From contig CAKZKA010000217.1 of assembly GCA_937120965.1 (NCBI GenBank), positions 1-35,939 of the forward strand: a stretch of 35,939 nt of DNA, in the 5' to 3' direction. The notes beneath the pieces were generated by a model. That model ran no database searches, had not been told where the DNA came from, and saw nothing but the letters and a program-made list of their open reading frames with translations. Shown one piece after another: positions 18,477 through 31,745 of the stretch (positions within the stretch are counted from its first letter, which is position 1; each line of letters starts with the position of its first letter). Made by a program: the position numbers and the translations under genes. This DNA is from an uncultured Chloroflexota bacterium (GTDB lineage Bacteria > Chloroflexota > Chloroflexia > Chloroflexales > Chloroflexaceae).

Positions 18477-18803
18477 CTAACCCGTCAGAGCCAGCTCATC
18501 CGCCTGGGCAATTTCAATCGGGATCATCGCCACCCGCGGCGCGGCGCCGTCGCGCACGCGCGTTGCGCCGTTGTATTCGCTGCACCAGTACCGCCCGTCC
18601 ACCAGGTAGGCGTAGTAGCAGGTACTGCCTGCCGGCACGGTCACCGTTGCTTCCCAGTACTGTTCACCCCGCCGCATCGGGGTGGCCGTCGTGCTCCAGT
18701 TGTTAAAATCGCCCACGAGATGAATGCTGTCGGCCCAGATCTGTGCTGGCAGGCGAAACACAACCATCACCTGCTCGTTGTTGAGTGGGAGTTGCACGAT
18801 CAT
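18477..18803 (-). CDS. Small CBM48/isoamylase-N-terminal-like protein
   Basis: This 108-residue protein is a single early-set beta-sandwich of the glycogen-binding CBM48 type. The marks are VVFRLPAQIWADSIHLVGDFNNW, quoted as VVFRLPAQIW and VGDFNNWSTTATPM, and the AGSTCYYAYLVDGRYWCSEYN strand pair. Such domains bind glucan or act as adaptors in glycogen-linked proteins; this one has no attached enzyme. I chose the ATG at 18803, which starts MIVQLPLNN with an AGGGGG site upstream. A longer start at 18863 would add an Arg-rich tail and cannot be fully excluded. It converges on phaC and is near the GH13 gene, suggesting a carbohydrate-storage role. Its exact function is unknown. Confidence 0.78.
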   Translation of the reverse strand: MIVQLPLNNEQVMVVFRLPAQIWADSIHLVGDFNNWSTTATPMRRGEQYWEATVTVPAGSTCYYAYLVDGRYWCSEYNGATRVRDGAAPRVAMIPIEIAQADELALTG

Positions 18804-19243
18804 CGGGGTACCCCCTCTGGAAGTTCGTCTGGCGGGCAAACGCCGCCGGTAGCGTCTGATCATGGCGGAGGATACCAGTGGCTCTTCGCCGTTGAAGACG
18901 CCTCGTTTCCCTGATGGCCGTCGCTCACTCCCGGAGCTGACCATCGGCGCGCTCCTCCTGCCTGTCTATTCTGAGGGTACCATTCTTCACGCGCTGCGTC
19001 ACTCCGTATCACTACGAGACGCGCGTCACAAGCGGCGCGTAAACAGGGCTTTAATATCGGTTCAACCCCGTAGTTCTACGGATCGGGTGTGCAGTTCTGA
19101 CGCATTCTAGTGGCAAATGGCGGGCAACTGGCCCGGAGCGGGGCCCGGGGCGCCCCGGGTTCCCCATTCCACAACCGCCGGTGGGGGCGCCTGGCGCCCA
19201 ATGGGCGGGGGCATGGGGAAATCCGCTTTCCCCAATGTCCCTA
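18804..19243. other. Intergenic region upstream of the CBM48-like gene
   Basis: I see no gene. The part at 18940-19110 is less GC-rich and non-repetitive, with a short CCGTAG/CTACGG hairpin near 19068. From 19130 a degenerate repeat appears, including a GGGGCCCGGGGCGCCCCGGG run and a decayed palindrome GGGGAAATCCGCTTTCCCC at 19215-19233. No confident promoter for the minus-strand gene was found. Confidence 0.5.
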
Positions 19244-20365
19244 TCAACCCCGTGGGGTGCGATACGGCCCCAGGTACCGCTGCACGAGCGCCAGGTCGAA
19301 CTCCTGCTGGAGCCAGGTGCGAGCGCCTTCGGCGGTGGCGGCGAGAGCATGGCCAAGCTGCCGGCAGATCGCGTCGGCGAGGAACTGCGGCAGCGGCTCC
19401 TGAATGCTGCCGACGCGCAGGGCGCTACGGAAGGTCGCCAGCACAGCGCCCAGCGGCTCACGGGCGATCAGGGCCGCCGGCAACTCCAGGCGGTAGGCCG
19501 GCCCCAGGCCATCGGGGCGGTAGTAGAGCACGTAGAGTTGCCCGTACCCACGCTCGATGGCCGCGCGCCGGTCGCGAAAATCGGCGATAGCCGGGCTACG
19601 ATAACCGGTCAGGAGGTGCGGCCGGTCTTTGCGGATCAGCGGGGTCGGCAGCGCGTACTCGCCGGGGTTGAGGACGCTGGTCCAGAGGGTGCGGTCGGTT
19701 ATCGTGCCGCTCAGGTGCGGCGCCAGTTCCAGCACATCGTCGGCGGCGGTGGCCGCCTTGGGATGCGCCACCACGCGCCGACACTCCAGCACCAGCCGCC
19801 AGTCTTCGTCCTGGAAGAAGGCTTCGATTAGCGGGCGGAACGTCTCCCACCACGCTGGCGGCCTTCCACCGCGGTGGTCCTGCGCGTAACGTACCAGCAG
19901 CCGGTTGATCTCCAGCAACAGCGCGTAGAACGAGCCATCGAGCACGAAGAGGCCGCTGCTGGTGCTGCGGATGCGCCGGGCGAGCAACCGCACCTCCAGC
20001 ACCGCGCGCAGGCCACCGAGCATGGTGTCCAGCTCCTCGACCGGCGGCAGGAGACTGACACGCACATCCTGGTCGGTGAGCGTGGCATCTTCCACCGCGG
20101 CAGCGGCGATCGCCGCAAAGGTCGCCCCGGCGGCGGGCACGGTGGCATGGGCGCCATCAACGGCGCAGAGGCGCCGCGCTGGCCCATCAGGCGCGGCCTT
20201 GATCCGCCGGTCGAGAACGGCACGCAGACGCTCGCGCTCGCCCTCCAGGGCGCGCAGGGTCTCGCGGCAGGCCTCGGCGCAGGCGCCGATCGCCTGCAAC
20301 ACCGCTGCGGGCAGCGCTGCGGTGCCGATGCGGTGCAGGTCGGGTTGCTGCCCGGCATCGTCCAT
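19244..20365 (-). CDS. nurA: NurA-family nuclease
   Basis: This 373-residue protein fits the NurA domain, a manganese-dependent 5'-3' nuclease that works with the HerA helicase in DNA end resection. The two landmark acidic motifs are present: D70 in CAVDGAHA and D143 in FVLDGSFY. Near the C-terminus are the LLTGYRSPAIADFRDRR and GPAYRLELPA segments typical of NurA. No herA gene lies in this window. GGAGAAAGGA precedes the ATG. The gene is downstream of the translin-like gene on the same strand, with about 310 bp of repeats between them, so they may be separate units. Function is assigned from family knowledge; partner and substrate are unverified. Confidence 0.82.
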   Translation of the reverse strand: MDDAGQQPDLHRIGTAALPAAVLQAIGACAEACRETLRALEGERERLRAVLDRRIKAAPDGPARRLCAVDGAHATVPAAGATFAAIAAAAVEDATLTDQDVRVSLLPPVEELDTMLGGLRAVLEVRLLARRIRSTSSGLFVLDGSFYALLLEINRLLVRYAQDHRGGRPPAWWETFRPLIEAFFQDEDWRLVLECRRVVAHPKAATAADDVLELAPHLSGTITDRTLWTSVLNPGEYALPTPLIRKDRPHLLTGYRSPAIADFRDRRAAIERGYGQLYVLYYRPDGLGPAYRLELPAALIAREPLGAVLATFRSALRVGSIQEPLPQFLADAICRQLGHALAATAEGARTWLQQEFDLALVQRYLGPYRTPRG

Positions 20366-20394
20366 AGCGATGGTCCTTTCTCCGTAGCGTAAAA

Positions 20395-20674
20395 ATAAGG
20401 AACCCGGGGTTCCCTCCGCTCCTGTTCAGGGGGATGCCAGGCGCCCCCGCCACCGGTTGGGGGAGGGGGAAACCGGGGTTCCCCGCCGCCCCGGCCTGCC
20501 GGGCCGCCAGGCGCCCCCGCCACCGGTTGGGGGAGGGGGAAACCGGGTTTCCCCGCGCCCCGGCCTGCCGGGCCGCCAGGCGCCCCGCCACCGGTTGGGA
20601 GAGGGGGAAACCGGGTTTCCCCGCCGCCCCGGCCTGTGGGGAGGGTTTGGGAGGGCGCAGCCCTCTCAGGAGGA
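20395..20674. repeat. Tandem array of about 70-bp repeat units between nurA and the translin-like gene
   Basis: Three units sharing CACCGGTTGGG start at 20451, 20521 and 20590, each followed by a GGGGGAAACCGGGTTTCCCC-type palindrome and a CCCCGGCCTGCCGGGCCGCC stem. A partial AGGAACCCGGGGTTCCCT lies at 20397. A GGGAGGGCGCAGCCCTC palindrome closes the array next to the stop of the translin-like gene. Confidence 0.88.
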
Positions 20675-21313
20675 TCACGCCCCCTCCTGGCCCAGTTGGC
20701 GCTCCAGGTCACGCATCGCGGCCACCAGTTGGTCCTGCCGAATAGCGGCGCTGATGTCGCCGCGGGTGCGCTCGAGCACGGCGCGCAGGGCGTCGGTGGT
20801 GCGCCGCAGGCCGCCAGTGATCGCATCGGGGTAGTCAACCGTCACCAGGGCAACGTAGACATCGTCCATCAACTGGAGCAACGTTTCGCCTCGCGCCGTC
20901 TCTCCGCGCCGCAAGCCATCGAGAATGGCCCGGCGCAACTCACTGGCCGCCTCAGCCAGGCCGTTGAGGTAGGGCGCGGGATCAACCCCGAGCGCCGCCG
21001 CGCCTGGTGGTTCGCGCCCGGACAGGAAGGCCAGAACCAGGTGGGCCTCGGCATACTCCTTCAGCGCGTCCTGTGTGTAGCCCGCCGCGCGGATTTCCAG
21101 ACTGTTGGCTGTCGCGGCGTTGATCTGCGCCACCACCGCCCCGGCTGCGCCGAGCAGGCGCTCAGCTTCGGCAAAATCGCCGCGATGGGTCGCGCGGATG
21201 CTGTTGGCGCACAGGCGGATCAGGCTCCGCGAGGCTCCGATGACCTGCTCGCGGGCCGCATGGCTGGCGTCGATCTGGGCGACGCACTCCGCCACCAACT
21301 GGTCAATGCTCAT
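20675..21313 (-). CDS. Translin-family protein (possible nuclease)
   Basis: This 212-residue all-helical protein matches the translin/TRAX family, sometimes mislabelled as a haloacid dehalogenase. The family core appears in order: RSLIRLCANSIRATHRGD, then QDALKEYAEA (E86 and E89), YLNGLAEAASELRRAILD, and MDDVYVALVTVDYPD followed by GGLRRTTDALRAVLERTRGD. In eukaryotic C3PO the TRAX subunit uses two glutamates in the EYVEA region plus an aspartate to cut RNA; E86/E89 and perhaps D174 are in comparable positions. Translin proteins form octameric shells. The gene has a good GAAGGAG site and its own promoter. It is followed by nurA. An RNA- or DNA-processing role is inferred. Confidence 0.8.
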   Translation of the reverse strand: MSIDQLVAECVAQIDASHAAREQVIGASRSLIRLCANSIRATHRGDFAEAERLLGAAGAVVAQINAATANSLEIRAAGYTQDALKEYAEAHLVLAFLSGREPPGAAALGVDPAPYLNGLAEAASELRRAILDGLRRGETARGETLLQLMDDVYVALVTVDYPDAITGGLRRTTDALRAVLERTRGDISAAIRQDQLVAAMRDLERQLGQEGA

Positions 21314-21832: not shown

Positions 21833-22543
21833 ATGATGCACCAGAAACACAAACTCACCATACTGGCGGTCGTCGCCCATCCCGACGACACTGAGTTCGG
21901 CATCGCCGGTTCCGTCGCCCGTTGGACCGCCGAGGGCCACACCGTGATCTACTGCATCGTTACCGATGGCGCCGCTGGCTCCAACGAGCCGTCCGTTGAC
22001 CCGCAGACCCTGGTCGAGACCCGTCGCGCCGAGCAGGTCGCCGCCGCTGCCGCGGTTGGCGTCCACGATGTGCGCTTTCTTGGCTACCCCGATGGCTCGC
22101 TCCAGCCTACGCTCGAGCTGCGCCGCGCCATTACCCGCCTCATCCGCGAGGTACGGCCCGACCGGGTGGTGTGCCAGGACCCGACGACCTACTTCTTAGG
22201 TCACAATTACATCAACCATCCCGACCACCGCGCCGTTGGCGAGGCCACCATCTACGCCGTCTTCCCCAGCGCCGAGACGCGCCACATCTTCCCGGAACTG
22301 CTCGCCGAGGGCCTCGAACCGCACAAGGTTTCGGAAGTTTACCTGGATCTGACCCTGCATCCCGATACCTATGTTGACATCAGCGACACGATTGACCGCA
22401 AGCTTACGGCGATCGGGTGCCACCGCTCCCAGGTTGGCCCCGAGGCGCTGACCATGGTGCGCGAGTGGGCCGCTGAAGCCGGCGCCAGGGGGGGGTATGC
22501 CTACGCCGAAGCCTTCCGCGTGTTGCGCCTGGTCGAGGGCTAG
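21833..22543 (+). CDS. PIG-L (LmbE-like) zinc deacetylase
   Basis: This 236-residue protein is a zinc-dependent N-acetylglucosaminyl-type deacetylase. Metal and catalytic residues are visible: H16-P-D18-D19 in AHPDDTEF and H129-P-D-H132 in NHPDHRAVG. The Rossmann-like domain pattern (LTILAVVAHPDDTEFGIAG, given as LTILAVVAH then PDDTEFGIAG) is typical. Relatives deacetylate GlcNAc-containing precursors of thiols or glycolipids, or act on antibiotics; the substrate here is unknown. Two ATG codons are adjacent (21833 and 21836), and the preceding promoter suggests a leaderless message. The protein lacks a signal peptide. It stands alone between two repeat clusters. Confidence 0.92.
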   Translation: MMHQKHKLTILAVVAHPDDTEFGIAGSVARWTAEGHTVIYCIVTDGAAGSNEPSVDPQTLVETRRAEQVAAAAAVGVHDVRFLGYPDGSLQPTLELRRAITRLIREVRPDRVVCQDPTTYFLGHNYINHPDHRAVGEATIYAVFPSAETRHIFPELLAEGLEPHKVSEVYLDLTLHPDTYVDISDTIDRKLTAIGCHRSQVGPEALTMVREWAAEAGARGGYAYAEAFRVLRLVEG

Positions 22544-31203: not shown

Positions 31204-31745
31204 GTGTTTCACATCAGTCATCCATGCGGCTGCGCCGCACAACGACACGATGAACATAGGTTTTTCCTGGGAGGGCTATGCCCTCCCCAACCCTCCCGCC
31301 AGGGAGGGGTGTGGGGAAACCGGGTTTCCCCACACCCCAACCGCCGTTGGGGGCGCCTGGCGCCCCAGCAGGCAGGGGGATGGGGAACCCGGTTTCCCCA
31401 TTTCCGAACCGCTGTTGGGAGCGGCTGGCGCCCCCACAGGCAGGGGGATGGGGAAACCCGGTTTCCCCGTATTTTCACATCCCAAACCCTCCCCGCGGGC
31501 GGGTTGTTTCCTGGAAGGGCTGCTGTCCGCCTTTCAACTCTCACTGGGCAGGAGTCCGGCTCCTCTCGCCAACCGGGGAGGTTGGGAGGGCAACCAGAAC
31601 GCACCGTTCTAAACGGTAAGGTGTCAGAGGGCATGGCCCTCGCAAACCCTCTCCGTCGGGAGGAACATGGGAAACCCCGGATTCCCCACATCCCCGCGCG
31701 GGAGGCTACGGCAGGCTACGCTCTCAGGCGCGGGCTACGTTCACC
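31204..31745. repeat. Repeat cluster between radA and the PIN-TRAM gene
   Basis: TTCACATCAG starts the cluster, followed by CATGCGGCTGCGCCGCAC, GATGAACATAGG and GGGAGGGCTATGCCCTCCC. Three 19-bp-type palindromes lie near 31313, 31381 and 31442, separated by AACCGCCGTTGGGGGCGCC-type stems. A decayed region (31500-31680) follows, then a last GGGAAACCCCGGATTCCCC near 31669. It holds no gene. Confidence 0.85.

Follow-up and report, generated by a model that had tools for sequence, protein, structure and literature searches.

A translin-superfamily protein of the C3PO type encoded beside a divergent NurA paralogue in Chloroflexales

The translin/TRAX proteins are known mainly through eukaryotic studies of RNA interference and genome stability and through two archaeal crystal structures. 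The A. fulgidus C3PO (AfTRAX, 3zc0/3zc1) is cited in PMC9246224 as a single-paralogue RNase (Parizotto 2013), and the C3PO of Nanoarchaeum equitans (NEQ131, PDB 5jr9/5jrc) is likewise cited in PMC9051087 as an RNase built from one paralogue. An archaeal operon joins TRAX to SepRS and endonuclease V (PMC5424206, PMC8762117). Bacterial translins are already catalogued, as NCBIfam family PRK14562 and in Gupta et al. 2012, whose subject is eubacterial translins. Thus, the remark in the initial annotation that they are hardly studied is fair with regard to experiments, which are few, but these proteins are not undescribed. A literature search for translin and Chloroflexi together returned only the SepRS study PMC5424206, and one for PRK14562 found no mention of it.

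We analyzed a stretch of 35,939 nucleotides, hereafter the window, which is contig G000:C217 of a 5.18-Mb Chloroflexales genome whose closest relatives are labelled Chloroflexaceae or Chloroflexales. Its minus strand carries a translin-like gene and, 309 bp downstream, a second nuclease gene that we call NurA2. The features of the locus are the following:

20675-21313, minus strand: translin-superfamily (TRAX/C3PO-like) protein, 212 aa, ATG start; predicted ssRNA endoribonuclease subunit (NCBIfam, AfTRAX, AF2)
20366-20674, no strand: spacer between translin and NurA2, 309 bp, with a 70-bp x 2.9 tandem array of the GGGAAACCCGGTTTCCC repeat at 20436-20636
19244-20365, minus strand: divergent NurA-family nuclease, NurA2, 373 aa, ATG start (Pfam NurA, profile-profile match)
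18477-18944, minus strand: ORF with a CBM48 (glycogen-binding) domain, 155 aa, downstream of NurA2 (Pfam CBM_48, 30.6 bits)
21833-22543, plus strand: PIG-L family deacetylase, the divergent neighbour on translin's other side (Pfam PIG-L, 111 bits)

The window protein resembles A. fulgidus C3PO in its fold, the glutamates of QELVEA/KEYAEA, and the ELRR motif, and it differs in having Glu121 where AfTRAX has its catalytic Asp, in being bacterial, and in having the NurA2 gene after it. It shares the fold and the ExxE motif with N. equitans C3PO, although identity between the two is just 17-18%. The archaeal operon also places TRAX with nucleic-acid enzymes, but there it is partnered by a tRNA synthetase and endonuclease V rather than by NurA. 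For NurA2, the closest described system is the canonical bacterial NurA of NurA-HerA (Deinococcus type, PMC9960219), with which it shares the Pfam NurA domain and, compared against Chloroflexota NurA, aligned residues D70, E124, D143, and D224. Unlike that system, NurA2 is very divergent, has no adjoining HerA, apparently carries an Asp in place of the AHE histidine, and is partnered with translin.

Genome-wide, the near-palindrome GGGAAACCCGGTTTCCC has 1247 exact copies (599 forward, 648 reverse; control 0). It builds tandem arrays of 66-70 bp units, in the window for example at 20436-20636, 1581-1796, and 31300-31468. In the window, the spacer between translin and NurA2 is widened by one such array; the same spacer measures 56 bp in genome G003. 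The CBM48 ORF follows NurA2 in only three near relatives (L031, L032, L033) and probably lies outside the pair.

We found that the translin-like protein belongs to PRK14562, matching PRK14562.1-5 with 315 bits against a cut-off of 291. This family is named "haloacid dehalogenase superfamily protein" in NCBIfam, a misleading label given that the fold is clearly that of translin/C3PO, and we regard it as a database misannotation. The Pfam Translin model PF01997 scored the protein at only 15.6 bits, under its cut-off of 25.9, so Pfam-based annotation overlooks it; a PF01997 search of the window's genome accordingly gave no matches at E 0.001, a null result that reflects insensitivity of the model and not absence of translin. 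AfTRAX (3zc1) matched the protein with E 1.9e-18 from the single sequence and E 7e-36 from a profile, and human TRAX with E 1e-4 in a profile search. An AlphaFold2 model of the single chain, built from 43 aligned sequences, reached a pLDDT of 97.2, and Foldseek ranked AfC3PO, NeC3PO, human and fly C3PO, and translin highest against it. In VIA-align, the model matched AfC3PO with Z 24.1 (190 residues superposed at an rmsd of 1.6 A, 32% identity), NeC3PO with Z 21.6, and human TRAX (C3PO 3pja_J) with Z 20.3. Since these scores far exceed those of unrelated helical proteins (Z <= 9.9), the identification is firm: judged by its predicted structure, the window protein is a genuine member of the translin superfamily, related to the RNA-cutting ring that translin and TRAX form in humans. 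The translin/TRAX assignment of the initial annotation thus held up, and the fold comparison that might have overturned it came out decisively for translin.

The same annotation had placed a NurA-type nuclease beside translin on the same strand, and this too was borne out, with the refinement that the neighbour is a divergent paralogue. NurA2 scored 24.0 bits against Pfam NurA, marginally over the cut-off of 21, and a profile-profile comparison with canonical Chloroflexota NurA (n = 21) gave P 3.4e-6 over residues 65-314. In an alignment of 17 NurA2 sequences, D70, R120/E124, D143, D224, and R292/P296 are conserved, and these fall on columns invariant in the 21 canonical proteins. The canonical GYP..AHE reads EPLPQFLAD in NurA2, where the conserved His is apparently Asp331, a correspondence drawn by eye outside the profile-aligned range. 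PDB sequence searches with NurA2, both single-sequence and profile, returned no matches, and its structure model was poor (pLDDT 46) and unusable for fold comparison. Two more NurA genes make NurA2 not the sole NurA of the genome: the canonical one on C35, with a HAS-barrel gene adjoining, and a divergent third on C101, beside a HerA ATPase. No HerA was found in the window, the best HerA matches being on C101 and C257. NurA2 is thus an orphan, a divergent extra NurA paralogue and not the canonical NurA of the genome. Two side observations concern these other loci. At L116:8619-9221, a stand-alone HAS-barrel protein of 201 aa stands right after canonical nurA, and HerA is on another contig; the second HerA ATPase, on C101 (L112), matches PADLOC HerA models and may form a defence or mobile cassette with the divergent NurA adjoining it.

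We consider it likely that the translin-like gene encodes a C3PO-type endoribonuclease that depends on metal and acts on ssRNA, and that in Chloroflexales it shares a transcript with the orphan NurA paralogue. We surveyed the pair in the window's genome and 40 relatives; of these 41 genomes, 37 carry translin and 21 carry NurA2. Within the window's family, NurA2 adjoins translin on the same strand, with translin first, in 16 of the 17 genomes carrying both, while in the sister family the two are adjacent in one of three co-carriers, and in the Roseiflexus-like genome G030 they lie 1.7 Mb apart. Each gene also occurs singly: translin is found without NurA2 in six members of the window's family, in Chloroflexus, Chloroploca, and Herpetosiphon, and in nearly all other Chloroflexota, and G015 has NurA2 without any translin. 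Depending on which start codon is chosen, 10 of 15 loci allow NurA2 to begin no more than about 90 bp from the end of translin, in some cases overlapping it, and the spacer is longer in the others. Differences from genome G003 at single-difference codons were mostly synonymous in both translin (48 synonymous, 9 non-synonymous) and NurA2 (92 and 18), which fits purifying selection.

Of the best 80 public loci, 15 have NurA2 after translin; every one of these is from Chloroflexales, and we saw no translin-NurA adjacency outside this order among the loci listed. Nor did these 80 loci reveal a general alternative partner, the neighbours elsewhere being unrelated and lineage specific. In Herpetosiphon, for example, they are an aroA-like gene and a short-chain dehydrogenase, and marine Chloroflexota have a pyrophosphatase-like membrane protein there, all named from sequence starts only. 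The neighbourhood survey that had been proposed for Chloroflexota therefore upheld a conserved pair within the lineage, but one that is confined to Chloroflexales and has several times been lost or broken. Because the pair is kept within one order and not beyond it, we read it as probably an operon local to this lineage, made up of two nucleases of familiar kinds, and not as a new universal system. The interpretation offered in the initial annotation is thus supported in part.

Given this distribution, we asked how far the pairing speaks for coupled function. Our judgment is evenly balanced on whether translin and NurA2 are functionally unrelated, their order having been inherited from one NurA2 insertion downstream of translin in a Chloroflexales ancestor. 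This reading competes only with coupled function and leaves the fold and RNase parts of our preferred explanation untouched. It gains from the restriction to a single order, from the repeats that stretch the window's gap, and from a translin tree compatible with one old NurA2 gain and several losses or separations (six changes). Using adjacency of PIG-L and translin as the synteny background, we found that this other flank is conserved as well, in 9 of 17 family members; however, adjacency with NurA2 is more frequent (Fisher p 0.017, uncorrected for phylogeny), its orientation is constant, and its spacing is often short. A control pair, amylase-PhaC, could not serve to calibrate synteny because few relatives have its orthologues.

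Of 301 Chloroflexota genomes, 167 carry translin, 187 carry any Pfam NurA, and 153 carry both, such that NurA-family genes occur in 153/167 genomes with translin versus 34/134 without it (odds ratio 32). In the coordinates listed for these genomes, no NurA gene adjoined translin outside Chloroflexales. Endonuclease V co-occurs with translin more weakly (odds ratio 10), and since it does so likewise, common clade history accounts for part of the signal. After collapse to 81 families, in a table counted by hand, the odds ratio for NurA was 6.7 (p 0.001). The association thus extends past one clade, although a good share of it comes from lineages having or lacking gene sets, and the co-occurring gene is usually canonical NurA and not the paired NurA2. 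These figures, the operon-like layout, and the link between translin and the stability of the genome in human and fission yeast cells (PMC9246224) could be read as signs of a dedicated two-component processing or repair system, in which a translin-NurA2 complex would act on RNA:DNA intermediates. We find this rather unlikely, as both genes also occur singly, adjacency was seen only in Chloroflexales, and the phylum-wide co-occurrence mostly concerns canonical NurA and partly reflects clade structure.

The EYxEA glutamates noted in the initial annotation are present as K85-E86-Y-A-E89-A, and E86 and E89 are invariant in 23/23 Chloroflexales sequences and 43/43 broader relatives. Together with E121 and E125, they form a putative acidic site. 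The AfTRAX segment FLNGFADAVGELRR aligns with YLNGLAEAASELRR of the window protein, which brings the AfTRAX Asp opposite E121, and E125 of ELRR is common to both proteins. The deposited AfC3PO-RNA complex 3zc0 has Ala at the position of this Asp, which suggests that a functional residue normally stands there. Most of the 43 loci were collected with two peptide patterns, one of which spans E121 and E125 but not E86/E89, so the invariance of E121 and E125 among the 43 is partly due to selection; in the 23 sequences from the whole-protein search, all four positions are invariant. The ExxE, Asp, and Glu expected of a catalytic TRAX are therefore all represented, with one conservative change, Asp to Glu121. 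This change appears compatible with metal binding, and Glu in place of the catalytic Asp may lower activity. It is also what would favour a non-catalytic protein that only binds nucleic acid, a reading that we consider unlikely because all four positions are still acidic, as in RNase-active TRAX.

Returning to the preferred reading of a C3PO-type RNase, the translin-like protein is a helical TRAX-type protein, most likely assembled into a closed homo-octamer, and by homology ssRNA would be cleaved inside the octamer barrel with a divalent metal that E86, E89, E121, and E125 would coordinate. NurA2, a predicted RNase-H-fold nuclease, would act on DNA ends or ssDNA; it was probably gained close to the root of the branch uniting the window's family with the Roseiflexus-like family, and in most relatives it probably shares one transcript with translin. 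The link to NurA2 suggests a repair-related use of the translin-like protein. Speculatively, the two could share a task in R-loops or RNA:DNA intermediates, NurA2 trimming the DNA and translin removing the RNA, but a loose operon of two independent nucleases fits the evidence at least as well. That translin and NurA2 form a coupled bacterial machine of RNA and DNA nucleases, with the task of removing RNA:DNA intermediates in the course of repair, is in our estimate quite unlikely; if true, it would be the prokaryotic counterpart of translin's reported role in genome stability. We consider it highly improbable that the pair serves anti-phage defence by analogy with HerA-nuclease systems, for although HerA-NurA-like modules are known in defence, PADLOC includes HerA models, and a HerA and NurA cassette lies at C101 of the same genome, PADLOC and PHROGs searches gave no match for the translin-like protein or NurA2, the genes around the pair serve metabolism and housekeeping (amylase, PhaC, PIG-L, an S1-domain protein), and translin is steady among the relatives, unlike patchy defence genes.

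The protein described here represents a well-conserved bacterial branch of translins, found in more than half of the Chloroflexota genomes sampled and carrying a dehalogenase's name by mistake, that would constitute a single-subunit version of translin/TRAX. Its linkage to NurA2 in Chloroflexales offers a concrete, testable lead towards a function in nucleic-acid repair.
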